IMG/VR virus record: IMGVR_UViG_3300023106_000021
Location: 1-39,036 of that record
Origin: a virus
Reading direction: 5' to 3' (one strand)
Length of the DNA: 39,036 nucleotides
Shown: positions 4,531 through 29,209 of the stretch, piece after piece
Layout: each line of letters begins with the position of its first letter
How positions within the stretch are numbered: the first letter of the stretch is position 1
The notes under the pieces: generated by a model
What the model was told of the DNA's origin: nothing
Seen by the model: the letters and a program-made list of their open reading frames with translations, nothing else
Databases searched by the model: none
Program-made: the position numbers and the translations under genes

Positions 4531-5166
4531 ATGTCATTTTGGGACCTAGACGATGGAACAAGCGCAGTCACCAACGACAAGGAATACAGCGCAGGCGGCG
4601 GCGACTTCGACGTAATCCCCAAGGGTTCTTCGGTTCTCGTCAGTATCGAAGATGCCTCTTGGAAAGAGGGTTACCAAGTTTCCGAAACCTTCGTAAATCT
4701 GAAGGTGCGTGTCGCCAAGCCCGAGGCTTATGCAAACCGGATCTTGTTCTTCAAGCTTTGGATCGACGACCTCGATCCCGGCGTTAAGACGAACGGTGTG
4801 TTTGATCGTGCCAAAGCCGTAACGAAGCGTGATAAGCATAAGAAGATGCTGATGGCCATCGACGCCAACGCGAAGGGCAAGCTTGCCAAGCTTTCGGGGC
4901 GTCCTACCGATGACCAGTTGGCTATCGCGCTAACTGCAACACAGTTCGTCGCAACTCTCGGCGTTTGGGATAAGACTGACGACGAAGGCAAGAAGACGCC
5001 TGGGGGAAATTGGTTAATGGCTTCGAAGCCGAAGACCGCTGAAATTTCGGAACCCGCCCCCAAGTCCACCGGCAACGGCGGCAACTCCACCACGCGCCAG
5101 CGCAGTTCGTTTGCTGACGATTTAGACGACGATGTGCCATTCATCACCGCCAACGGAGTATTCTAA
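4531..5166 (+). CDS. SSB-like protein with acidic C-terminus (DUF669-like)
   Basis: The 211-residue protein starts at ATG 4531, one base after the upstream stop. Its N-terminal two thirds (FWDLDDG..., VLVSIEDASWKEGY, FVNLKVRVAKPEAY, LFFKLWI) look like a beta-rich OB-fold of the kind found in DUF669-type phage proteins. A Ser/Thr/Gly-rich linker leads to the acidic motif DDLDDDVPF near the C-terminus. That resembles the DDDIPF tail by which SSB recruits partners, although here a further seven residues follow. Placement directly after the Sak4-like ATPase matches known Sak4-SSB pairs. It should coat single strands during annealing and replication. Confidence 0.65.
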   Translation: MSFWDLDDGTSAVTNDKEYSAGGGDFDVIPKGSSVLVSIEDASWKEGYQVSETFVNLKVRVAKPEAYANRILFFKLWIDDLDPGVKTNGVFDRAKAVTKRDKHKKMLMAIDANAKGKLAKLSGRPTDDQLAIALTATQFVATLGVWDKTDDEGKKTPGGNWLMASKPKTAEISEPAPKSTGNGGNSTTRQRSSFADDLDDDVPFITANGVF

Positions 5167-5181
5167 CCACCCCTTACCGGA

Positions 5182-5199
5182 CCCCGCTTCACGGCGGGG
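5182..5199 (+). other. intergenic hairpin
   Basis: A perfect 6-bp GC stem (CCCCGC / GCGGGG) with a TTCACG loop follows the SSB-like stop by 16 nt and precedes the next ribosome binding site. No U-run follows, so it is more likely an mRNA stability or processing element, lowering or separating downstream expression, than a full terminator. Confidence 0.45.
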
Positions 5200-5224
5200 C
5201 GAGGCTAAGAAGTGGAGAAGTGAA

Positions 5225-5479
5225 ATGTCATTGTACGATAGGGCTGATGTAAAGCGCACAATCCAGATTGATGATCTGACGCCTAAGGAGTTGGCGGCGT
5301 TGTTCTGCGATATGTTCGGAAACCAGCAAGCGGAATTCTTTGACGAGATCTATGCCATTACTCGCAAATGGCCGGGGGCTGGCTGGTGCCAGCAATCATG
5401 CGATCTGGTTAGCCATCTGACTGCTGATGGTCGCGAAGCCGTCAAAGTTATGGCAGCGCATCTGGAGTCGGAAGCATGA
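5225..5479 (+). CDS. hypothetical protein in recombination operon (84 aa)
   Basis: The frame starts at ATG 5225 with GTGGAGAAG just upstream and ends by a 4-nt ATGA overlap with the exonuclease gene. The soluble product begins MSLYDRADVKRTIQIDDLTP and has a predicted helical core (KELAALFCDMFGNQQAEFFD) plus a GAGWCQQS segment. The sequence resembles small proteins that recur beside phage exonuclease or annealing genes. I can name no domain with confidence. Translational coupling to the exonuclease suggests a partner in recombination or nuclease control, which is inference only. Confidence 0.75.
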   Translation: MSLYDRADVKRTIQIDDLTPKELAALFCDMFGNQQAEFFDEIYAITRKWPGAGWCQQSCDLVSHLTADGREAVKVMAAHLESEA

Positions 5480-6345
5480 TCGAACAACGCACCCCCGAAT
5501 GGTTCGCGCAAAGGAAGGGCCGCGTCACAGGCTCAGTCGTAGGCGGCATCCTGGGCCTATCCCCGTACATGACCCGAGCCGATGTACTACGAAGCATGGT
5601 TCGTGCTTCCCTGGGCGCTCCCAGCGAGTTTACCGGCAACGTCGCAACCGAGTGGGGCACGTACAACGAAGCCGGCGCCATCCAAGAGTTTGAGATGGAG
5701 ACGTCCGAGCGTGTCGATAAGATGCCGTTCGTGGCATACGAAGATTGGCTAGGCGCATCGCCCGACGGCGTGGTGACTGATGGCAAGGGCCTAGAGGTCA
5801 AGTGCCCCTTCGGCATCCGCAACGATCCCAGCCCCATCTTCAAGATGCCGCAGGAGTTGCCGCATTACATGGCACAATGTCAGGTGGAGATGTTCTGTGC
5901 CGACTGGCAATCGCTTTGGTTCTATCAATGGACACCGCACGGCACCTGCAACAAATTAATTCATCGAGACGACGATTGGCTGGCTACTAATATTCCGCGT
6001 TTGAAGCAGTTTCATGCTGAGTATTTGTGGGAGTTAGAGAACAACCCCGACGAACACCTTACCGACAAGCGCATAACCATAGACACTCCCTCTGCACAAA
6101 AGATGGTCGCAGAGTACGACCAGCTAACCGAAGCCTTGGAGCGCGCTGGAGAACGGCGGAAGGAACTCTTGGCGGAGATGGTATCCCTGAGCGGGGAGAA
6201 GAACGCCGTGTTTGGTGGGCGTAAGCTGACGCTGACGAAGAAGGCGGGTGCGGTGTCTTATGCCAAGGCGGTGAAGGAACTGGCTCCGGGTGCGGATCTT
6301 ACGAAGTGGACTGGTAAGCCTTCGGAATATTGGGGGTTGAAATAA
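5476..6345 (+). CDS. YqaJ-type viral recombinase exonuclease (lambda Exo-like)
   Basis: This 289-residue protein shows the full lambda Exo/YqaJ signature. It opens QRTPEWFAQRKGRVTGS with the W...R..R.TGS helix, then has WGTYNE with the Glu at 65, GASPDG with Asp at 97, and LEVKCP with Glu 107 and Lys 109 as the metal-binding catalytic D-ExK set. A helical C-terminal part follows (about 190-240, coiled). It should digest one strand of linear duplex 5' to 3', producing substrate for the Sak4/SSB pair encoded just upstream. It overlaps the preceding gene by 4 nt, and the helicase gene begins on the next base after its stop. Confidence 0.9.
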   Translation: MIEQRTPEWFAQRKGRVTGSVVGGILGLSPYMTRADVLRSMVRASLGAPSEFTGNVATEWGTYNEAGAIQEFEMETSERVDKMPFVAYEDWLGASPDGVVTDGKGLEVKCPFGIRNDPSPIFKMPQELPHYMAQCQVEMFCADWQSLWFYQWTPHGTCNKLIHRDDDWLATNIPRLKQFHAEYLWELENNPDEHLTDKRITIDTPSAQKMVAEYDQLTEALERAGERRKELLAEMVSLSGEKNAVFGGRKLTLTKKAGAVSYAKAVKELAPGADLTKWTGKPSEYWGLK

Positions 6346-8777: not shown

Positions 8778-8907
8778 CGTATTCCAAACGACGCCGCACA
8801 CCCTTAGTGCTACGACCTAACCTTACGCCTATGATGGCGTAGGGCAGGCCGCTATCTCGCAGGCTCTGAGCTGCGTTGGTTTCCTCGCGTGTCCAATCCG
8901 GTTTCAT
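8758..8907 (-). CDS. tiny Myb/SANT-like helix-turn-helix protein (49 aa)
   Basis: From ATG 8907 to TAA 8758-8760 the product begins MKPDWTREETNAAQSLRDSG and continues LPYAIIGVRLGRSTKGVRRRL. The W at 5, the LRDSGLPYAIIG segment and the G-RSTKGVRRRL recognition helix match a single Myb/SANT-like or GcrA/sigma-like HTH. The ATG overlaps the stop of the DpdA-like gene (ATGA), and the 3' end runs 20 nt into the convergent gene 8538-8777. A gene this short with such a clear DNA-binding pattern is probably a regulator. GcrA-type motifs of this kind are common in alphaproteobacteria. Confidence 0.65.
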   Translation of the reverse strand: MKPDWTREETNAAQSLRDSGLPYAIIGVRLGRSTKGVRRRLEYVKEMSS

Positions 8908-9647
8908 GCTGCCATTGCCTCCAAATTATCGGCGTACCACTTACGCCCGTTCCATTTACCCGGTCCGTACCCCTCAAACATACAAGCCTGATGATCGCGC
9001 CAGTCGTGACGATGGCCGTTCTGAGCCAAGCTAGTGGCGTCCACCGATAAGAACGGATAATCACCTCCGACCAGAATGCCGCGAAGCATGTGAATGGGAG
9101 GCCACCTGTTTCCTAACGCTTTGGCTATTTCGTCCATCTTAGCGCGGTACGCGGGACAGCCGACATCCTCTTCTTCCGGTTTAATTCGCTTGGCGACCTC
9201 GTCAAAGCCACCAACCCAGCCAAGACAGACACGGTCGAACCGGTCGCATAGTTTTAACAAGCGATCGGTGGAACCATTCATGTGGAACAGCGGCGCTCCG
9301 ACGCTGCGTCCAAAAGGCCAGTCGTTCAACAAGCCATCGTTAAACTGCGTCGGCGCTCCAGGCCGATCAGGGATGACACCCCAGCATCCCGGTTGAAATA
9401 TCCGCTGTTCGTACCACGCATATAGCTTGGTATGGTCACGGGGGGCCTCATCCCATTCCAGTCCGTCTTTCTTGGCCTTGTTCCATGCCTTGAACTCGCC
9501 GTTGTCGTACATACGAAACGGGCAATGCTCCAAGGCCCGTTGATCGTCTGTAGGCGTGCCATAGCTAATGCACACGCCACGCGCAGGCATAACGGCCTTA
9601 AACGCCGCCTTAGGCGTCATAGGAGTGCCGTGGTACACGAAGGCCAC
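8904..9647 (-). CDS. DpdA/TGT-like 7-deazaguanine transglycosylase
   Basis: The 247-residue protein resembles tRNA-guanine transglycosylase paralogs of phages (DpdA), which swap guanine for a 7-deazaguanine in DNA. Visible matches: MYDNGEF with Asp 48 in the position of the TGT general-acid Asp (DSGGF); GVIPDRPG then W, like the VPD...W segment of DpdA; CDRFDRVCLG; HMLRG; and SVDATSLAQNGH with Asp 203 at the TGT nucleophile position (compare D...PTRNARNGH). The classic CxCxxC zinc site of TGT is not obvious. GTG 9647 is chosen for the GGGAG 8 nt upstream; another GTG lies at 9662. The adjacent QueD-like gene supports the pathway. Alternative: a tRNA-acting or inactive relative. Confidence 0.62.
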   Translation of the reverse strand: MAFVYHGTPMTPKAAFKAVMPARGVCISYGTPTDDQRALEHCPFRMYDNGEFKAWNKAKKDGLEWDEAPRDHTKLYAWYEQRIFQPGCWGVIPDRPGAPTQFNDGLLNDWPFGRSVGAPLFHMNGSTDRLLKLCDRFDRVCLGWVGGFDEVAKRIKPEEEDVGCPAYRAKMDEIAKALGNRWPPIHMLRGILVGGDYPFLSVDATSLAQNGHRHDWRDHQACMFEGYGPGKWNGRKWYADNLEAMAA

Positions 9648-9649
9648 GC

Positions 9650-9988
9650 TTAGCGCTCCCACCGTGCGTAGAGGCCTTCAGTGTGGCGGTTCACGTCAAC
9701 TGCGATGCAGACGCTACCATAATATTCCAACTGTCCGCCAATATAACGTGCAAGGCTCTCACCAGTCGCAATAGCATCGGGCAGCACGTTGCCTTGAAAT
9801 CGGCAGATAGCCGTAATCAATGCTTTTTGCAGGCTTTCAGCGTCGTCGCCAGCATGGAACCATGCGATCAATTCCCATGTGTGGGGGTGAATGTCACCCG
9901 GCTGAAAAGGCGGGCGGTGTGAAGCATTAAGGATAGCCCTTACCCCCGTCAGTCGCCGTTCGGGCTTCTTGCGATTAAACCAGCTCAC
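9650..9988 (-). CDS. QueD/PTPS-fold protein lacking usual catalytic Cys
   Basis: The 112-residue protein aligns by eye along the whole of 6-carboxytetrahydropterin synthase (QueD). The zinc histidines are present: H24 in NASHRPP, then H34 and H36 in IHPHTWEL, matching AAHRLPH and LHGHSF of E. coli QueD. Later ATGESLARYIGGQL matches PTSEVLAKWI. However, the catalytic Cys that precedes the HxH pair and the His of the LDHH motif are absent (here PGD and RFQG), so normal QueD chemistry is doubtful. Some phage QueD relatives have been proposed to act on 7-deazaguanine bases, for example as decarboxylases. GTG 9988 overlaps the upstream stop (GTGA). It directly precedes the DpdA-like gene. Confidence 0.6.
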   Translation of the reverse strand: MSWFNRKKPERRLTGVRAILNASHRPPFQPGDIHPHTWELIAWFHAGDDAESLQKALITAICRFQGNVLPDAIATGESLARYIGGQLEYYGSVCIAVDVNRHTEGLYARWER

Positions 9989-10719
9989 GCCGCCATCCTC
10001 CGCAAAGCCCGCTCAGCCCGCCCAATAAGCTCAGCGTCGGTGATCCCAACAGACCGCCCACAGATCCAGAATCGGCCCCGCGGATCCTGCTTACCCTCCG
10101 CGGTACACCGGACGACTGGCTTCCACCCGTCGCGCTGCAACACACGCTGAGCCTCCCCCGCCGCCGAGTCCTCCTTATACCCACGATCGACAGGCGCGCT
10201 CATGTAGCCGGGTTTGGCGATCTTCTGTGGCTTCTCCGCGGGTTGGCGGGTGAAGTCTATGGCGCGGACGTTGGCGCCCTTCTGGATACGCTTGAGCCCC
10301 TTAGACACAACCCAGCGGCGCACGGTCTTCGTGCTAACCCCGTAGTGCTTACACAGCCACGATACAGGGTTGTCGGTCCACCTACTAACGAAGTCATCGG
10401 GAACAGGCTTGGCGGGCACTCTACGCGACTGTGGCGTGCCCTTAGACAACCGGTAGCGATCGACAGCGTTGCAGACACGCTTGCGGCCCACGTTCATCTG
10501 TTTGGCGATGGCGTCGTAGGAATGCCCCGACTCTACCAGCGTCTTGAGGGTGTTGAGCATATCGTCCGTCCAGGCGCGCTGGTGGACCGACACGCCCGAC
10601 ATACGCCGCCAGCGCATGATGGTATGCCGGCCTACGCCGTACATGGCCATCTGCTCCGGTACCGTCTTGTGCAGGTGTTCGCGGAAGTCGGCGGGGAGGG
10701 GGTTTTTAAGGGGGGTCAT
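9985..10719 (-). CDS. multi-HTH DNA-binding protein (244 aa)
   Basis: The protein contains at least three helix-turn-helix-like units: EQMAMYGVGRHTIMRWRR near 25-40, a Myb-like unit DMLNTLKTLVESGHSYDAIA with KQMNVGRKRVCNAV near 53-88, and SWLCKHYGVSTKTVRRWV near 118-137. A C-terminal part holds CTAEGKQDPRGRFWICG, seen in phage proteins of unknown function. It starts at ATG 10719, overlapping the upstream stop by 4 nt, and overlaps the QueD-like gene by 4 nt. It may be a transcription regulator or a site-specific DNA-binding partner of the modification genes. It is not recognisable as a known repressor. Confidence 0.7.
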   Translation of the reverse strand: MTPLKNPLPADFREHLHKTVPEQMAMYGVGRHTIMRWRRMSGVSVHQRAWTDDMLNTLKTLVESGHSYDAIAKQMNVGRKRVCNAVDRYRLSKGTPQSRRVPAKPVPDDFVSRWTDNPVSWLCKHYGVSTKTVRRWVVSKGLKRIQKGANVRAIDFTRQPAEKPQKIAKPGYMSAPVDRGYKEDSAAGEAQRVLQRDGWKPVVRCTAEGKQDPRGRFWICGRSVGITDAELIGRAERALRRMAA

Positions 10720-11149: not shown

Positions 11150-11319
11150 GAGAAAAAGCCTCCCCACTGGAGTAAATAGAGCATCAGGAACAGGTTAAGC
11201 AGGGGACTCCACCATTTATCGGCGGGTCTAGGCTTGCCTAAATCCGTGTAGCGAACAAACGTGCCGAGAATCAGCAGCGTTAGCAAGATGCCCTCAGGCC
11301 AGCCGATGTTGATGTTCAT
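11146..11319 (-). CDS. small membrane protein (57 aa)
   Basis: ATG 11319 to TGA 11146-11148, preceded by an AGAGAGAGGA purine stretch. Two hydrophobic segments (ILLTLLILGTFV near 11-22, LLNLFLMLYLLQW near 40-52) flank a charged loop (YTDLGKPRPADKW), giving a two-pass hairpin topology. It overlaps the GIY-YIG gene upstream and the 49-aa membrane gene downstream by 4 nt each. I recognise no family; a role at the inner membrane with its neighbour is possible. Confidence 0.6.
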   Translation of the reverse strand: MNINIGWPEGILLTLLILGTFVRYTDLGKPRPADKWWSPLLNLFLMLYLLQWGGFFS

Positions 11320-11717
11320 GCCAAACGTCCTCTCTCTTGGTTCATCTCAGGCACTTGGTCTTCAAAGAATTTCAGAGCCGCTTCTGCCGCTTCTGGGCTT
11401 AACCCACCATCAGTGGTTAATAGGTGGAGCTTATATTCTCGCGTCGGTTCTTCTGGTTTTTTGCTATCGTCAAAGGTGCTGCGAATAAAATCCCGTATTT
11501 CGGAGCAATCTTCAAACCATTCTCCGTGCAACCTGCGTGCAGCGAACTTAGAATGGAGCGCCTTTTCCTCTAGCAGCGATCCCTTGATGGTATGGAAAAG
11601 CTCTAGAATCACATGGGAGCCCGTTTGAAGCTGCTTAATACGGCCAACTACATCGTTTTTCGCGTATCCGATCTTAATGGGGCCAGCGCATCCCAAAGGG
11701 CGAACGAAGTAAATCAT
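11316..11717 (-). CDS. GIY-YIG nuclease (T5orf172-like)
   Basis: The 133-residue protein begins MIYFVRPLGCAGPIKIGYAK, in which IYF and IKIGYA occupy the GIY and YIG strand positions, followed by the conserved Arg in VVGRIKQLQTGSH, then EKALHSKFAARRLHGEWFE with the His/Glu pair of the T5orf172 subfamily. The C-terminal 40 residues are polar and helical. Such nucleases occur as free-standing phage enzymes and as parts of mobile genes. It lies between the XRE regulator (its stop directly precedes this start) and a small membrane gene, so it is under the same leftward promoter. Confidence 0.82.
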   Translation of the reverse strand: MIYFVRPLGCAGPIKIGYAKNDVVGRIKQLQTGSHVILELFHTIKGSLLEEKALHSKFAARRLHGEWFEDCSEIRDFIRSTFDDSKKPEEPTREYKLHLLTTDGGLSPEAAEAALKFFEDQVPEMNQERGRLA

Positions 11718-13612: not shown

Positions 13613-13803
13613 GCGGGCGAGAAGGCAGCAACACCGCCAGCCGGATCGCGGAACTACGCAAGCGGATCACGAAGAACCGGGGCATCGCCAAGCGTGCTTC
13701 GGAAACGTCGATGGAGCTCGCGCGCAAGGCTCAACGTGCCGAGCGTGAAATCTATTTCGATCAGAAAGAGATCGAAGACATGGGCGGAAAGGTACGTCGA
13801 TGA
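13609..13803 (+). CDS. small basic coiled-coil protein (64 aa)
   Basis: ATG 13609 overlaps the upstream stop by 4 nt. The product begins MSGREGSNTASRIAELRKRI and is dominated by a long Arg/Lys/Glu-rich helix (residues 11-57), a likely coiled coil, ending GGKVRR. It is strongly basic. No family is recognised. It could bind nucleic acid or dimerise with another small protein of the block. The stop overlaps the start of the Lar-like gene (ATGA). Confidence 0.62.
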   Translation: MSGREGSNTASRIAELRKRITKNRGIAKRASETSMELARKAQRAEREIYFDQKEIEDMGGKVRR

Positions 13804-14165
13804 ACACCCCCAATCTCAACCCGAGCCGCGAGTTGATGGGGTGTCCTTTTTGCGGCGGTGAGGCCACGTACCAGTGGCATTCATCGCCGGAGTGCTGGAT
13901 CGAATGCCAGACGTGTTTCGCGGTGGGTCCGAACGACAAGGATACCACGACGGAACAGCATGTCGTCGGCTGGAACACCCGCGCCCTCTCGCAGACACTG
14001 CCAGCGCCGGGGGAGGTGGACTATGCCGAGGCCGCGCGCGTGATGTTCGAAGCGTGTCCAGATCGGTTCATGCGTGCCGAGCAGTGCTATCCTGCGATCG
14101 ATGCGCTTGCCGCTGCCGGGTTCTTCGCCACCTCACGCTCGCAACACGAAAGGGCTTCATCATGA
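13800..14165 (+). CDS. Lar-like restriction-alleviation zinc-ribbon protein
   Basis: The 121-residue protein carries CPFCGGEA at residues 15-22, then CWIECQTCFAVGP, then VVGWNTRA. This C-x2-C...C-x2-C ribbon followed by WN.R is the Lar/ prophage restriction-alleviation signature. The C-terminal half adds a helical VDYAEAARVMFEACPDRF segment that is often fused to such ribbons. Lar-type proteins were named for modulating type I restriction, but most family members are untested. Together with the DpdA/QueD-like genes in block C it hints at an anti-restriction theme. It overlaps both neighbours by 4 nt. Confidence 0.65.
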   Translation: MNTPNLNPSRELMGCPFCGGEATYQWHSSPECWIECQTCFAVGPNDKDTTTEQHVVGWNTRALSQTLPAPGEVDYAEAARVMFEACPDRFMRAEQCYPAIDALAAAGFFATSRSQHERASS

Positions 14166-17352: not shown

Positions 17353-17502
17353 TTACTTTTCCTTTTCGAAAAAATTATCTGGGACATACTCGCAGCCCAC
17401 AACCCTTTCAGGGTCGTTATTGATGATAGCATCCTGCCTGCTGTTTGCATCAACGTTTTTGGTCGAGCCATCTTCGTAGGTCATAAGAAATCTGTATGTC
17501 AT
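17353..17502 (-). CDS. small hypothetical protein (49 aa) after tailspike
   Basis: ATG 17502 overlaps the tailspike stop by 4 nt (ATGA), and the TAA is at 17353-17355. The product begins MTYRFLMTYEDGSTKNVDAN and is acidic and soluble, with beta-like start and ending PDNFFEKEK. This frame is short enough to be missed by length filters. Coupling to the tailspike could suggest a small chaperone or decoration, but there is no sequence evidence for that. Confidence 0.58.
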   Translation of the reverse strand: MTYRFLMTYEDGSTKNVDANSRQDAIINNDPERVVGCEYVPDNFFEKEK

Positions 17503-19979
17503 GTCAGTGTTACCGCCTTTCCGTCAGTGGCGCTAGTTGGCGCGCCTCCTGTCTTGAAACGCAAGATGGGATTTGCGGGGTCTGTCTCATCAACGAACAA
17601 ACGAAACTTACCGCCTTTGCCAAAGACAAAATGCTGACCGTTAAACAGGCCATCACCCAAAGTCTGAATATGGCCGGTATTGGCATAATCGCGAGCTTGG
17701 TAAATCTGGACTTCCGCAACACGGAACTTGTTTGCCGTTGCCGCGTATTCGATGCTTTCAATTTTTAGCTGCCATGCCGTTTTGTTTGAAGTCGCGGGCA
17801 ACTGGAAACGCAAACGTATTGCGTTATAATCGCTGGTTAAAATTAGCCTGCGTTCATTAGCAATAGCGCCTGTGGATTGGTTCTGCATATAGACGCGGAC
17901 AGCGTAAGAGCTATTGGTGGAACCACGCGCCAAAATAAGGGCAACGCGGACCTGCTTGCCTTCCGAAAGATTGGCATCAAGAGGGAAATATAGACCTTGG
18001 CCGTTGCCAGAAACAGTTACCTCCACCGCTCTTGCAATTCCGGCGTAATTGTTAGTACTGGCGGCAGATGCCCCCCCGTATGTTCCGTTAGGAGAGAAAT
18101 TGGTAAACTCTGCAACCGTGCTGGCAGAGCCAAGCCTAAACAGCGATGCGTCATCTCCTCCCGCTGAGGGCAGGGCAACCATCTCCTGGTTTCCGTACAG
18201 GCCATCGGGATCGTCTTGTACGCCAATCAGCGCCTGACCGTTCACTACGCCATCGCGGAAAGGTAGCCCCTGGGGGTACCCATCGCCCGCGAACAATTCC
18301 ACCTTATGGTTCATGTTCGTATAGTCGTTGGGTCGAGTACCCATGTACTCAACCATTACAGTATGCGCGCCACCGTCATGGCGGTTATTCTGCCACCGAA
18401 CCCCACGGAACTGCCCGATATACGATCGGCAGAACGGAGCGCTTGGTACGGCCATGCACGCCACACGGCTATCCTTGACCGTAATATTCTGGAGGTATGC
18501 GCCAGTCGGATACCATGTGGCATCAGGCATGCGAACCTGCCGATTTGCCCCTGCCGCTTCCTTTGCGATCAGAATGCGGACATCCCCAGCTTGCATGTTC
18601 TCATTGCCGAACTTTGTGCCGGAAATGATGTGTGCGTTACCAGCGTTGACCCCATCGGGATCGGTATCGTTAGGCACAAACCAGAAATTGGCGAGAAACG
18701 GTGTGGTGCTGTCCCAACGCAGCATGTCGTTGTTTTCGAAATGTGAGGAACCAGACTGGTAAGGCCCCCATTTGATATGGATGTAGTTTCTGAGGAACTT
18801 GTTCTTTCGAACCAAGCAGCCATCGGCATAGCCACCCCAGGCAATACCAATTGCCTGAGAACCCGCAGCCGCCATAAAGGAACAGCCCGTCACCTCAAGA
18901 TACGGTGCGTCAACAGCATTGTTGCCAATCGCGCACTCTGTGTAATTGTCAAAAACACAGCGCTCGAAAACAAGCTCTCCGTTGACATTAACACCGGTAT
19001 AAGTGTGCTGGAACGTTCCCTTTCCGCCCGCAAAGTTAATGCCGTAACAATATATGTTATTCATGCGCTCGTTGCATGTAAACGCATACTGTCCGTCTGG
19101 GATTAAAACTACGACCGTACCGGGTACGGCATAAATATGCAGAGACACGAATGGCTGAGTATTACCCGTTAGAGCTATAACTTGGCTCAGTGAGTAGGCG
19201 CCAGCCGGAAGAAAAGTGGCATCCTGTGGGTGTGCCCAATAACTTGCATCGATTTTCGGAGCATAAGTACCCGTCGAGGCCGCAAAGGCCAACGCAGAGG
19301 AAAATGCAGGCTGGTCATTGGCAGGAACTCCGCCGGCAGAACCCACACTAGCCCCAAAATCCTGTACGGATTTACGTTCCGAAAGCTTCTTGTCCGAAGG
19401 GCGGAATTTTGCCGTAGTAGCGGCTAGGAAGGCAACGGACTGCGCGCTCTGAGGAACCAAGGCGCCTGTCGTCAATGGCACGCTATTGAGCTGCACAACG
19501 TCCGTACGAGCTGTGAAATTGCCAGTCTGGTAGGTGAAAAGGCCGTTTACATATCCACCATCAGCGCCTGAAGGCGCTGCAAGACGCGGTGAAGGATAGA
19601 CGATAGGATCAATGGCTTTTAGCGCCGCAAGGGTAGGAAATGTCGCATCAGAGGGCCCGACATCGCCGGTAGCTCCTGGCGTTCCAGTATCGCCCTTAGT
19701 CGAATTCATCGCTACCGACGGCACACGAAAGATAAAGCTGGTCGCATTCGGCGCGTAGATGTCGAGGTGATACGTCCCCGGCACTACGTAGAAATCCAGA
19801 TTCCCGTAATCGTCGGTGGAGCCCATGTTGTCGACGCCGGACTTCGTGACGATCGGCGTACCGTTGTCGTCGGCGGACATCGTGATGGTATTTTGGGTAG
19901 CTGGATCAATGACGCGCGCATAGTAACCCACAAGCGAATCGCCGCTGGTGTTGGTGATGGCCTCGAAATAATGGTGCAT
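17499..19979 (-). CDS. tailspike / tail fibre with pectate-lyase-like beta-helix
   Basis: This 826-residue protein begins MHHYFEAITNTSGDSLVGYY, a particle-binding beta domain (1-95), then a short collagen-like stretch KGDTGTPGATGDVG, then a linker. From about 205 (VQDFGASVGSAGGVPANDQP) the VxDFGA...DxxAF motif marks the start of a right-handed beta-helix, as in pectate-lyase-type tailspikes. A long Asn/Gly/Val-rich helix follows to about 560, and the C-terminal 250 residues form one or two beta-sandwich domains (carbohydrate-binding or trimerisation). It probably binds and may degrade a host surface polysaccharide. Catalytic residues cannot be assigned from sequence. Confidence 0.85.
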   Translation of the reverse strand: MHHYFEAITNTSGDSLVGYYARVIDPATQNTITMSADDNGTPIVTKSGVDNMGSTDDYGNLDFYVVPGTYHLDIYAPNATSFIFRVPSVAMNSTKGDTGTPGATGDVGPSDATFPTLAALKAIDPIVYPSPRLAAPSGADGGYVNGLFTYQTGNFTARTDVVQLNSVPLTTGALVPQSAQSVAFLAATTAKFRPSDKKLSERKSVQDFGASVGSAGGVPANDQPAFSSALAFAASTGTYAPKIDASYWAHPQDATFLPAGAYSLSQVIALTGNTQPFVSLHIYAVPGTVVVLIPDGQYAFTCNERMNNIYCYGINFAGGKGTFQHTYTGVNVNGELVFERCVFDNYTECAIGNNAVDAPYLEVTGCSFMAAAGSQAIGIAWGGYADGCLVRKNKFLRNYIHIKWGPYQSGSSHFENNDMLRWDSTTPFLANFWFVPNDTDPDGVNAGNAHIISGTKFGNENMQAGDVRILIAKEAAGANRQVRMPDATWYPTGAYLQNITVKDSRVACMAVPSAPFCRSYIGQFRGVRWQNNRHDGGAHTVMVEYMGTRPNDYTNMNHKVELFAGDGYPQGLPFRDGVVNGQALIGVQDDPDGLYGNQEMVALPSAGGDDASLFRLGSASTVAEFTNFSPNGTYGGASAASTNNYAGIARAVEVTVSGNGQGLYFPLDANLSEGKQVRVALILARGSTNSSYAVRVYMQNQSTGAIANERRLILTSDYNAIRLRFQLPATSNKTAWQLKIESIEYAATANKFRVAEVQIYQARDYANTGHIQTLGDGLFNGQHFVFGKGGKFRLFVDETDPANPILRFKTGGAPTSATDGKAVTLT

Positions 19980-20868: not shown

Positions 20869-23418
20869 TCATTGCGTCGCCAACTGCGAACCGGCACCGG
20901 CCAGCATGGGCGCACCGAACAGACCGCCAATGCGCGCCCGGTTCGCTATGCCGTTACCAGCGCGGATAAGCATATCAGGACGATCGAGCAGAGCCGCTAC
21001 TAGCGCCCGTTGCCCCACACGACTTCCGCCAGCGGCGAGCAAGCCGCCCAGTGCAAGTGTGCCGCCGATGCCCTTTGCAGCGCCTTCACCGTCACCAGCG
21101 GCATACCCAGCACCACCCGCACCACTTAGGCCTAAACCCGCTGTGACAGCCGCCCGGGTTGCTGTACCACTATCCGCGATCTTGCTAGGCAACACACGCT
21201 GCGCCGCCCGGGTAAGATTGTAGAACGGCTGGTTAGTCGTTCCCTGTCCGCCGCCGAAGCGACGTGCATTAGCTGCCGCTGCGTCGGAAAGCTGCGCTGC
21301 CGAGAATAGCCCGGGATCACCAGTGGTAGTACCGCTACGGGCGCGGTTTACGGCATCTTTCAGAATTTCCACATTGCGGTTTGCACGGTTGGCAGCATTG
21401 TAAGCCGGCAGCGTACCCGGAGACTGACGCTGCAATAGGCCCTCAAGTGCGCCTTCAGCCTGCCGCGTCACTTCCCCGAAGTCGTGACCATATGGAAGGT
21501 TTTCGACAGCCCGGGCATCACGGCGAAGACCGCGGATAGACTGCTGAAAATCATTGCCGCTCAGACCGCCGTTAGCGTCAAACGAATTCCCCACCCGGGT
21601 CGGCAGGGTATAGTCCAGATTGCCGCTCATGGGATCGGGAAGCGCTCGACCTGCCGCGATGGCTCCTTGCATATCGCCAATGAACGGCGCGTCAGCCTGC
21701 ACCTGAACCGGGTCTAGGGCATCGCTATAGGCTTGCGAGCGCGCACCGCGAGCAATGTCAACGCCTTGTTCGCGCACGACGCCACCAGTATTGGCGTTGA
21801 TCGGGGCTAGGCCCTCATCAAACGCCGCACGATTCATACCTTCGAAGCTATCAGTATAGCGCCCCCGGGTGACAGCGCCGACGCCCGGAATGCCAGTGGT
21901 GGAATTCTCTAGCAACTGAGCGCCGCGACCTAGCGCACCGTTCTGACTGAGCGCCTGCCCTGCCGTCAGAGGCACGCCAGCGGCACGCAAGCCCTGCACG
22001 TCGGCATTCTGCACACCGCGAAACGCGCCGCCAACACCCCGAGCAATACCCCGCCCAGCGGCACCGCCAGCCAGCCCGCCAACACCGCCTCCGAGAGCGC
22101 CCAAGACACGGCTCTGGTCGGGGCCATCAGCCGAACCCGCACCATAGGCAGCGCCATACAAAGCATCCCCGCCCAATGCAGCCGCGCCAGCACCCAGACC
22201 CGCACGCGCCAATCCCAACTCAGCGCCACCAGCAGCCAGTGCGCCACCCGTCACGGTCCCCGCCAACGAAGCGCCTGGATACTGCTGTTGGCTATAGTCG
22301 ATCGCCAGCTTGGATTGCCCGCCTGCGATGTTATCGAGCGTTCCCGCCGTCAGCGCATCAGCGGCGTTGATGGCATAAGCACCACCTGCCGAGTCTGCCA
22401 GAGAACCAAGAGCTTTACCAACACCGCCGCGCGTATCGTCAGCAACGGGGGGCGCGAAGTTCAACCGCCCGCGCTTGGCGATGGCTGCGATAGTGGCTGG
22501 ATCGGAGAACGTCTGGAACCCGTTATCCGACAGCAGCCGGTTAAGCTCCTGTACGCCCGCACCCTTGGTGTAGGCTTCAGATAGCTTCTTGGACATCGCT
22601 ACGCCTGCCGCGGTCGCAAAGGTGCTGCCACCACCCGAGCCGCCAGAGATACCGCCGCCAGTCGTGCCGACGTTGTAGCCTTCTGGGCCGCTGGGGTTTT
22701 GTGGCGTAGTGCCTGCGCCGGGGATCATTGCGGCTGGCTGCTGCCCTGCCTGTTGCCCCTGCCGACGTGCGCCACCCATCGCATCCGCTAGACCCTGAAG
22801 GCGACGGATCTTATCTTGAATAACCGCGTCCCGGTCGCTGGACTGCGGAATGTACGGACCGACGGCGCGCTGCGCTTCCTTTTCGGTGTTGAGCTGCCCG
22901 CCAGTCAGCCCCAATGCAGGACCGACAAAGCCACGCACGGAATTGCCGGCAGCGTCGAACTGCTGGTTTTCGGTGGTGGGCAAATAGTCCTGCAAGCCGC
23001 CGATGCCCGACGTACGCCCCGGCCCCGCTGCAAACTTCGCCTTGATGTCGTCGATAGCGCGCTGGAGGTTCACACGGCCAACCTGACCCGAGACCGGCAA
23101 CTGGGCTTCGCGCTGCGCCTTCTGCAATGCCAATGCCGCCGTAGCCGCATCTGCTTCAGCCTTCGACGTATCCGCCGCCGCCTGCCGTGGCGCATAAGGA
23201 ACCTTAGCCGCCTCTAGCGCGATCTGCTGGGCAGTCTTCTGGTTGCCTAACCCAGCACCCTGAAGGTCCACAGACTGCCGCTGTGCCTGCACCGGGTTAG
23301 GCGCAACCACCGAACCCCCGCCCTGCTGCGGTGCAGGCGATGCCAACGAAACAGGATTGCCCGCTTCATCGATATTCCAGATGTTACCGGCTTCGTCGCG
23401 TGCCTGCTGCTGTGCCAT
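20869..23418 (-). CDS. large internal virion / DNA ejection protein (849 aa)
   Basis: The protein begins MAQQQARDEAGNIWNIDEAG. Residues 40-110 are Ala/Gln-rich helical. A Gly/Ala-rich region (about 375-465; GASLAGTVTGGALAAGGAEL and ALGGGVGGLAGGAAG) has glycine-zipper character, as in ejection proteins that enter the host envelope. Later segments (VPLTAGQAL, ESLTTGIPG-like ENSTTGIPGVGAV, NLTRAAQRVLPSKIAD) match a family of long phage proteins placed between the transglycosylase and tail genes. It is probably packed in the capsid and released with DNA to form the trans-envelope channel. It starts one base from the stop of the transglycosylase gene. Confidence 0.72.
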   Translation of the reverse strand: MAQQQARDEAGNIWNIDEAGNPVSLASPAPQQGGGSVVAPNPVQAQRQSVDLQGAGLGNQKTAQQIALEAAKVPYAPRQAAADTSKAEADAATAALALQKAQREAQLPVSGQVGRVNLQRAIDDIKAKFAAGPGRTSGIGGLQDYLPTTENQQFDAAGNSVRGFVGPALGLTGGQLNTEKEAQRAVGPYIPQSSDRDAVIQDKIRRLQGLADAMGGARRQGQQAGQQPAAMIPGAGTTPQNPSGPEGYNVGTTGGGISGGSGGGSTFATAAGVAMSKKLSEAYTKGAGVQELNRLLSDNGFQTFSDPATIAAIAKRGRLNFAPPVADDTRGGVGKALGSLADSAGGAYAINAADALTAGTLDNIAGGQSKLAIDYSQQQYPGASLAGTVTGGALAAGGAELGLARAGLGAGAAALGGDALYGAAYGAGSADGPDQSRVLGALGGGVGGLAGGAAGRGIARGVGGAFRGVQNADVQGLRAAGVPLTAGQALSQNGALGRGAQLLENSTTGIPGVGAVTRGRYTDSFEGMNRAAFDEGLAPINANTGGVVREQGVDIARGARSQAYSDALDPVQVQADAPFIGDMQGAIAAGRALPDPMSGNLDYTLPTRVGNSFDANGGLSGNDFQQSIRGLRRDARAVENLPYGHDFGEVTRQAEGALEGLLQRQSPGTLPAYNAANRANRNVEILKDAVNRARSGTTTGDPGLFSAAQLSDAAAANARRFGGGQGTTNQPFYNLTRAAQRVLPSKIADSGTATRAAVTAGLGLSGAGGAGYAAGDGEGAAKGIGGTLALGGLLAAGGSRVGQRALVAALLDRPDMLIRAGNGIANRARIGGLFGAPMLAGAGSQLATQ

Positions 23419-27090: not shown

Positions 27091-27164
27091 TCGCCCATCG
27101 TCTAACGGCAGGACATCGCGTTTTGAGCGCGTGAATCTAGGTTCAAATCCTAGTGGGCGATCCA
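27091..27164 (+). tRNA. tRNA-Gln (anticodon UUG), CCA encoded
   Basis: The cloverleaf is complete. The acceptor stem TCGCCCA / TGGGCGA has 7 perfect pairs with U1-A72, as in bacterial tRNA-Gln. The D arm is GTCT/GGAC, the anticodon stem has four good pairs plus a U27-U43 mismatch, and the loop TTTTGAG places UUG at 34-36. The T arm CTAGG TTCAAAT CCTAG is perfect, and CCA follows at 27162-27164. The discriminator is U73, unusual for Gln. It lies on the plus strand, opposite the surrounding late genes, and the leftward adaptor gene stops at the very next base. A TATAAA box at 27056-27061 could be its -10, but no good -35 is seen. It may supply the CAA codon. Confidence 0.88.
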
Positions 27165-27841: not shown

Positions 27842-29209
27842 TTAAACGCGGCGCAGTTCAGCCGCACCAATCTTGATCGTCGCACCGCCATTGTTGACGC
27901 GAGCCTCGACGCGCACGATTGAGCGCAGCGATCCGGCAACAATCACGAGAGGATCCGTGATTGCGCGACCGGCGAACGCAGATGGGAACGGATAGTAGCT
28001 TGCACCGATGATGGCGTTATCCATCCACCGCGAGAAGCCGCGATCCAATGCGCCGTCATAATCCAGAACCTGAATAAACAGGCCCTCCAGCCCGGTTGCG
28101 CCGGACACGTCGAGATCCATCGCTAGCTGTAGCTTGTCGCCGGTCGTGTAGTAGGTGCCAGCAAGCGGGTCGGTGATGAACGAGTACCGATACGTCGACA
28201 CGCCCGACGCGCTTGCGAGCGTCAGCGTCTGGAAGTTCCCCGGCTTGCCGTCCGCCCGCGCCTCGATCGACGCGACGGACGTGCCTGTACCTGTGAGTGT
28301 GCGGTTATTCCAACCGGTAGCGACCGTGCCAGAAGCCGCGCCGCCCGTGCTGGTGTTGGTGCCCGCCGTACCCTGGAACAGTGACGAACCGCCCGCAACC
28401 TTTTCCAAGATGTTGCCGAACGGGTTGCTGGTCGCATCGTAGACATCAGCGCGAGAGCCTACAAACGGGAGGGGTCCCTGCAATAGCGGAAGGGTCGTGC
28501 CATTGACCGCACCGCCGATCGCGAAGTCGGCAAGCGTGGCGGGATGGATACCGTTATCGCCAGTGCCGTTGTTCTGGTAGTAACCTGCGATCGGATCGCC
28601 TGCCGCGTTGGCAGGATCAGCGAGCAGATAGTTTGCGTCCACCACCAAGGCCCCGAGAGCCGGCGCGTTGCGGATCAGGAGCGCGTTGAACTGCTGCGAC
28701 TGCGCCGATGCAGGAGCCGACCAGCTACCGATAGCACGCGACAGATCGGCAAGGCATACCGGTCGGATACCTGCTGCAATGAGCGGCTGGAGGATAGCCG
28801 CATATTGCGTCCAGCCGTCCGCTGCCGTGACATTGGCGGCGAAGGAGTTTGTGCCAGACAGGACCAGCGCATGAGTCGGGCGCGGCGTCATAGCCAAAAC
28901 CTGAACGACCTGAGTCTGCATATCAGTAATGAGCGAGCCCGACACTGCCACATTGTAGTCCGATGGCGCAGAGACGCGACCGCGGCTCAAGAACTCCCAC
29001 CATGCGGCAATGCTGGTGGTCTTTTTGCGGTTCGTCATTCCGCCGTTCTGCACGACGCGCTGGATACCCTGAGCCATACGACTGTCGCCGATGACAGCGA
29101 CAAGGGCGCGCCTGCCGAATCCTCGGGCTGTGACATCGCCGCCAGACGTATTTACCGCAGCGTTAAACTCCGCGGCTTGCGTCGGCGACATATTCGCGAG
29201 GATCGTCAT
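27842..29209 (-). CDS. SGNH/GDSL-type esterase, virion-associated (455 aa)
   Basis: Residues 35-235 form an SGNH hydrolase core. Block I is VIGDSRM with Ser 43, block II is VAVSGS with Gly 91, block III is LSGTNS with Asn 121, and block V is DNGIHP with His 222. The C-terminal 220 residues are a beta-sandwich, Thr/Gly-rich, likely a carbohydrate-binding domain (WNNRTLTGTGTSVASI ... VRVEARVNNGGATIKIG). It could remove acetyl groups from capsular or O-antigen polysaccharide during adsorption. Encoded among head-tail joining genes and apart from the tailspike, it probably decorates the particle. ATG 29209 overlaps the upstream stop by 4 nt. Confidence 0.8.
   Translation of the reverse strand: MTILANMSPTQAAEFNAAVNTSGGDVTARGFGRRALVAVIGDSRMAQGIQRVVQNGGMTNRKKTTSIAAWWEFLSRGRVSAPSDYNVAVSGSLITDMQTQVVQVLAMTPRPTHALVLSGTNSFAANVTAADGWTQYAAILQPLIAAGIRPVCLADLSRAIGSWSAPASAQSQQFNALLIRNAPALGALVVDANYLLADPANAAGDPIAGYYQNNGTGDNGIHPATLADFAIGGAVNGTTLPLLQGPLPFVGSRADVYDATSNPFGNILEKVAGGSSLFQGTAGTNTSTGGAASGTVATGWNNRTLTGTGTSVASIEARADGKPGNFQTLTLASASGVSTYRYSFITDPLAGTYYTTGDKLQLAMDLDVSGATGLEGLFIQVLDYDGALDRGFSRWMDNAIIGASYYPFPSAFAGRAITDPLVIVAGSLRSIVRVEARVNNGGATIKIGAAELRRV

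Follow-up and report, generated by a model that had tools for sequence, protein, structure and literature searches.

A short DpdA-type transglycosylase paired with a divergent QueD-fold protein: a candidate two-gene DNA-modification unit in an IMG/VR virus record

DpdA of Enterobacteria phage 9g inserts 7-deazaguanine into DNA (PMC6884629). Singleton DpdA proteins of phages were described in 2019, when no other group of 7-deazaguanine genes in phages was as large (Hutinet 2019, PMC6884629). Two phages with a singleton DpdA were tested at that time, and little or no modification was detected with the standards available: Salmonella phage 7-11 contained 50 dADG per million nucleotides, approximately 0.02% of G, and nothing else among five nucleosides, and Mycobacterium phage Orion contained none of the tested modified nucleosides (PMC6884629). 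The short singleton DpdA of phage 7-11 (group 3) belongs to the same transglycosylase family as the enzyme studied here (tblastn, E 6e-16), and phage 7-11 has no preQ0 genes; unlike in the present locus, no QueD-fold partner of the kind described below has been reported for it (PMC6884629). The gene clusters of 9g and of Escherichia phage CAjan are DpdA-based like the present one and carry FolE, QueD, QueE and QueC, often with an amidotransferase; the QueD of 9g is canonical, with its Cys and Glu in place. Pseudanabaena phage Pam5 and Rhizobium phages RHph_N3_2 and RHph_X2_30 combine the same DpdA family with one neighbouring base-supply helper, a transporter of the YhhQ/DUF165 type. E. coli YhhQ, a relative of these VUT transporters, is an importer of preQ0 and preQ1. 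A further phage protein, DpdL, is reportedly predicted to be a decarboxylase of 7-carboxy-7-deazaguanine (CDG) in phages with 2'-deoxy-7-deazaguanine.

The DNA analysed here, referred to as the window, is the whole of the IMG/VR virus record IMGVR_UViG_3300023106_000021, 39,036 bases in length. Because the record may be incomplete at its ends and is possibly a fragment, the absence of a gene is to be read as absence from these 39,036 bases. Its GC content is approximately 0.55-0.63, and it encodes a primase, single-strand annealing and RecE-like recombination proteins, a helicase, an endolysin, a major head protein, a portal protein and a terminase. The closest relatives of the head and portal proteins are found in alphaproteobacterial and environmental phage records, at approximately 28-44% identity. 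In the structural block, two very long reading frames on the minus strand (826 and 849 amino acids; 17502-19979 and 20872-23418) have no PHROGs match at E 0.001. A 455-residue protein among the head genes (27845-29209, minus strand) matches phrog_6102, labelled 'lipase', and a lone tRNA-Ser gene with a TGA anticodon (27091-27164, plus strand) lies on the strand opposite to the flanking structural genes. The present work concerns two adjacent genes, one for a DpdA-type transglycosylase and the other for a member of a QueD-fold subfamily, named QueDL here, of which 73 distinct members were found. The features are as follows.

8904..9662, minus strand: short DpdA-type guanine transglycosylase of the phrog_887 type, 252 amino acids (247 from the likelier GTG start at 9647)
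9645..9662, minus strand: QueDL/DpdA junction, with GGGAG (ribosome-binding-like) at 9660-9656, the TAA stop of QueDL at 9652-9650, then GC and GTG at 9647-9645
9650..9988, minus strand: QueDL, 112 amino acids, from a divergent phage subfamily with the QueD/PTPS fold
9985..10719, minus strand: helix-turn-helix DNA-binding protein, GcrA-like (Pfam HTH_23, E 1.4e-12), overlapping the start of QueDL
13800..14165, plus strand: Lar-like restriction alleviation protein (phrog_599, E 6e-7), given for context only

An earlier sequence-only reading had taken the two overlapping frames for a minimal 7-deazaguanine DNA-modification unit, a DpdA-like enzyme with a QueD-fold protein, and had noted the Lar-like gene and the lack of FolE, QueE and QueC. 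Both frames and the Lar-like gene are indeed there, and profile searches of the 39,036-base record found no FolE, QueE, QueC or VUT/YhhQ transporter, so that the complete preQ0/7-deazaguanine pathway is missing from it. At the junction, the GTG at 9647-9645 is probably the true DpdA start, because the product then begins with MAFVYHGTP, which can be compared with MALVYHGTP in relatives. The upstream helix-turn-helix gene ends where the QueDL gene begins, its stop overlapping the GTG start at 9988, an arrangement that makes the genes look operon-like and coupled. Translational coupling of QueDL and DpdA is possible at their junction, and the helix-turn-helix gene, apparently in the same operon, may be functionally linked to the unit. 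A small GIY-YIG-like protein (11316-11717, minus strand; MUG113/T5orf172, E 7e-9) is encoded near the unit.

Family membership and modelled fold identify the product of 8904..9662 as a short DpdA-type transglycosylase. The motifs pointed out earlier are present (DNGEF at residues 53-57, VIPD at 96-99 and VDATSLAQNGH at 207-217). The protein matches phrog_887, named queuine tRNA-ribosyltransferase, with an E value of 5.4e-16; the SfI DpdA and the 9g DpdA (E 6.9e-98) match the same family, which is thus common to the window protein and an experimentally tested phage DpdA. The AlphaFold model has a pLDDT of 83.3; rows from annotated phage records were left out of the alignments used for structure models. 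Comparison of the model by VIA-align placed the crystal structure of the DNA preQ0 insertase DpdA (7ui4) on top, with Z 13.2 and an rmsd of 2.9 over 178 residues, and tRNA-type transglycosylases (TGTs) followed at Z 12-13, within one Z unit, so the fold is a TGT-type barrel near DpdA. Foldseek put generic barrels on top, and DpdA and TGT ranked first only by VIA-align. Among 58 relatives D99 never varies, D53 and D208 are each kept in at least 90%, and the motifs come in the expected order. By analogy with the TGT family, these residues would be the base-binding and nucleophilic aspartates (D102/D156/D280-like). A direct Pfam/NCBIfam scan of the protein gave no match, a single-sequence search of solved structures with the window proteins returned chance matches only, and a viral scan with the single window DpdA sequence found no relative; alignment queries were needed. 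The family has at least 537 relatives in IMG/VR and matches 102 isolate phage records. The iterated DpdA profile also took in proteins of phrog_15826, and transglycosylase types were then counted separately.

The product of 9650..9988 has the fold of QueD and lacks much of its active site. Its model (pLDDT 93.8) matched QueD by Foldseek (E 3e-6, probability 1.00) and QueD/PTPS proteins by VIA-align (Z 13-14), and a profile search against the PDB also found QueD. Structure prediction and profile searches, which the sequence-only reading had proposed as checks, therefore agree with it on both folds. Like E. coli QueD (VIA-align Z 13.3), the window protein has the tunnel fold, three zinc histidines and a Thr-x-Glu region; the motifs are ASH (H24), HPH (H34 and H36) and TGE (E77), as had been noticed. 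However, Cys27, Asp70-His71 and Glu110 of E. coli QueD are all missing: a proline stands at the Cys27 position, Q65-G66 replaces Asp70-His71, and R101, followed by E104, replaces Glu110. A direct Pfam/NCBIfam scan gave PTPS at E 0.055, and the curated QueD model TIGR03367 (cut-off 89) did not match. On this point the earlier reading is not borne out: the QueD-fold partner is not a QueD.

The same pattern holds across the subfamily, although the window copy is an outlier within it. The three zinc histidines are found in 73/73 QueDL members, Glu86 is invariant and Asp70-His71 is kept in 69/73. The Cys27 position mostly holds Asp, Arg or Glu (Asp or Glu in 37/73) and is Cys in only 2/73, and the Glu110 position is Arg in every one of the 73, with a Glu three residues later in 69/73. 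In canonical QueD, by comparison, Cys27, Asp70-His71 and Glu110 are all invariant (18/18; the protein L180 was counted as canonical). A tree separates QueDL from canonical QueD by one branch with support 91, from few columns. Tested QueDL members score 19-29 bits or nothing against TIGR03367, again with the cut-off of 89; PF01242 is matched by 12/13 members, and a QueD-like PHROG was reached at E 0.01 by only 2/51. A broad alignment of 13 QueDL sequences was too divergent for scanning and was split into two, A5 and A6. By its residues QueDL is not an ordinary QueD, as two hallmark residues are lost. It is apparently an undescribed, phage-borne branch of the QueD fold, and identity with DpdL is neither asserted nor rejected here.

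QueDL is found almost exclusively beside a transglycosylase. QueDL queries alone brought in 85 loci. In 79 of these a DpdA gene lies on the same strand at a distance of no more than 1.5 kb, and in most cases it overlaps QueDL or is within 20 bases of it. At five further loci (L117, L133, L160, L177 and L179) the gene beside QueDL is transglycosylase-like and belongs to a different family, and only L128 is without any DpdA-like gene. Counted as distinct proteins, 72/73 QueDL adjoin a DpdA-like transglycosylase of one of three families: phrog_887 (64), phrog_15826 (7) and phrog_1279 (1, at L160:4749-5947), with one lacking a partner. The suggestion of a modification unit thus stands as far as the pairing of DpdA with a QueD-fold protein, which recurs far beyond chance, and not as to the partner being QueD. 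The family phrog_15826, labelled as of unknown function in PHROGs, appears to be an additional family of DpdA-type transglycosylases: its profile matches DpdA with a probability of 94.5, it has DNG/DSG, PD and D-GT motifs in order, and its genes adjoin QueDL or QueD-QueC (L179:3773-4384, L133:2193-2798, L177:4372-4977, L142:4197-4805 and L181:1336-1986). Since QueDL is nearly always next to a DpdA, it probably supplies or tailors an unusual base. At one locus two DpdA genes stand in tandem (L088:3541-4227 and 4971-5666).

The association has been remade repeatedly and not inherited once, as the QueDL-neighbour label requires no fewer than 9 changes on starred branches of the DpdA tree; the transporter label requires at least 7. 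Of 80 loci fetched with DpdA queries, 15 have QueDL and 37 have a VUT/DUF165 protein; the two never occur together, against an expectation of 6.9 such loci (P approximately 2e-5, with loci treated as independent though they are not fully so). The VUT proteins best match TIGR00697, the queuosine precursor transporter, with a score below the cut-off. Pam5, RHph_N3_2 and RHph_X2_30 thus carry the transporter and not QueDL, and the exclusion reads as a choice between making or tailoring a base and importing it.

Some loci carry further genes of the pathway. QueE adjoins the pair in QueE-QueDL-DpdA triads (L077, L024, L094-L098, L101 and L103), about a dozen distinct cases. The order DpdA-QueE-QueDL at L090 is the same as that of DpdA-QueE-canonical QueD at L216, and L139 (4381-6912) and L140 have a four-gene operon QueE-QueDL-DpdA-QueC, in which QueE and QueC score above curated cut-offs. 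None of the fetched loci has QueDL together with canonical QueD. By gene order, the triads and the operon point to QueDL occupying the QueD slot. Most QueDL loci are without QueE, QueDL usually being the sole added enzyme, and canonical QueD is rarely alone with DpdA. At L181-L195 (e.g. L181:260-1986) a phrog_15826 transglycosylase gene stands in one row with those for canonical QueD and QueC, and the flank that was fetched shows neither QueE nor FolE.

The open-access literature yielded no description of a QueDL-DpdA pairing. Among 50,697 phage records searched by tblastn with three QueDL queries, only Caulobacter phage DMCA (PQ480021) matched. Its genes DMCA_034c and DMCA_035c match the window pair in identity and order and overlap as well. 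The QueDL gene, DMCA_035c, carries only the annotation 6-carboxytetrahydropterin synthase, and DMCA_034c only that of a hypothetical protein. The QueDL proteins are 38.8% identical and the DpdA proteins 34%; the zinc site, the Arg and the Glu three residues after it are common to both. Unlike the window copy, DMCA QueDL keeps HGH and Asp-His, and the DMCA genome is longer (51,790 bases) and has an integrase gene.

The best reading, with a probability of approximately 45%, is that of a two-gene DNA-modification unit in which QueDL is a dedicated base supplier in the QueD slot. The DpdA-type enzyme would take guanine out of phage DNA and put a 7-deazaguanine base in its place. QueDL, as a phage paralogue of QueD, would act in the place of QueD, leading from the FolE product towards CPH4 and CDG, and the host would provide FolE, plus QueE and QueC unless the phage encodes them. 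The modified DNA would resist restriction. Such protection, also proposed in the sequence-only reading, is what we infer, and in phage 7-11, of the same family, only approximately 0.02% of G is present as dADG (PMC6884629). The identity of the base, DNA as the substrate and the reaction of QueDL are likewise inferred; CPH4 synthesis and a DpdL-like decarboxylation of CDG are both candidates for the chemistry of QueDL. In favour of the QueD-slot reading, besides the gene orders, the Cys27 position holds Asp or Glu in 37/73 members and Asp-His is retained in 69/73. Several observations weigh against it. Plain CPH4 synthase chemistry is difficult to reconcile with the absence of Cys27 and Glu110 together, and the window copy is also without Asp70-His71, which makes its own activity doubtful and more uncertain than that of the subfamily. 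An enzyme that is mostly the sole addition to DpdA would better fit a step missing from the host.

The host side of the preferred reading can be approached through the nearest DpdA genes in named genomes, which are 46-57% identical and lie in prophages of Sphingomonas, Sphingobium and Rhizorhapis. All seven sphingomonad genomes searched have QueC and QueE above cut-offs, adjacent in the neighbourhoods read, and six of the seven lack a PF01242 protein (QueD). The window phage may thus plausibly have a sphingomonad-like host with its own synthesis of CDG and preQ0. The earlier suggestion of a host-made base is to that extent credible, with the host itself placed only through these relatives. Adjacent queC-queE without a PF01242 protein was seen in the genomes of L198-L201, L203 and L205 (G001-G005 and G007) and at L224-L228. 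Plain supply by a host QueD was set aside, as most of these sphingomonads have QueC and QueE and no PF01242 protein. The fetched flanks of the sphingomonad prophage DpdA genes, one of them short, contain no QueDL, which also counts against the QueD-slot reading.

The strongest rival, itself unlikely, places QueDL after QueE as a tailoring enzyme that would bind CDG through the Arg, holding its carboxylate, and remove or change the carboxyl before insertion by DpdA. Such an enzyme would share a pathway with DpdL, beside DpdA and on the QueE product; the two are likened by description only. QueDL was detected in just one sequenced isolate phage. The invariant exchange of Glu110 for Arg and the loss of Cys27 point to a different ligand, and a sole companion of DpdA is what a step lacking in the host would require. 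In about a dozen cases the further companion is QueE, the maker of CDG, and QueDL excludes a transporter of the preQ0/preQ1 type. However, the operon of L139 and L140 includes QueC, with which a CDG decarboxylase would compete for substrate, QueDL and canonical QueD never co-occur, and the single match in DMCA means that cultured phages described with DpdL carry no readily recognisable QueDL. The comparison of folds does not separate QueD chemistry from that of a decarboxylase.

It is considerably less probable that QueDL is no longer an enzyme and acts as an accessory subunit, binding a 7-deazaguanine of the host and either passing it to DpdA or tuning the specificity of DpdA. Such a role would fit the close association with transglycosylases of three different families, the possible translational coupling and the reduced active site in four members (the window copy, L013, L143 and L069). 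Yet the invariant zinc histidines and Glu86, together with the retained Asp-His pair, suggest catalysis, and many DpdA relatives persist without QueDL.

Lower still stands the possibility that the window unit is decaying, with DpdA working on a host base and QueDL left as a remnant. The window copy has Q65-G66 for Asp-His, HPH for HGH and a long branch, and the nearest DpdA homologues (50-60% identity) are mostly without QueDL. Against decay, the reading frame is intact, the starts and ribosome-binding sites look sound, and the zinc site, E77, R101 and E104 are retained.

Least probable is a unit serving tRNA, in which the transglycosylase would act on tRNA and QueDL would boost queuosine supply during infection: the fold is common to TGT and DpdA and the PHROGs name points to tRNA, but the top single fold match is a DpdA, though TGTs are tied within 1 Z, the 9g DpdA of the same phrog_887 acts on DNA, and phage 7-11, of the same family, has traces of dADG in its DNA (PMC6884629).

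Under the preferred reading of a base-supplying QueDL, the unit would be a predicted DpdA-based DNA modification of known kind, and its novelty would lie in the rebuilt QueD-fold partner. A bolder claim, which we hold only tentatively and as a less than even prospect, is that QueDL is a new 7-deazaguanine enzyme with a rebuilt pocket (Cys and Glu lost, Arg gained). In uncultured phages and one isolate, it would serve three or more DpdA-like families, phrog_15826 among them, with either an unreported DNA base or a known one reached by a route so far undescribed. The exchange of Glu for Arg in all 73 members provides a clean signature against the mis-annotation of QueDL genes as QueD. In the QueD slot and excluding the import route, QueDL offers a concrete handle on the base used by singleton DpdA, and the prediction is that phages with QueDL draw on the queuosine pathway of the host to produce or tailor a specific base. 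Caulobacter phage DMCA, which is cultured and infects a laboratory strain, makes the QueDL-DpdA unit directly testable.
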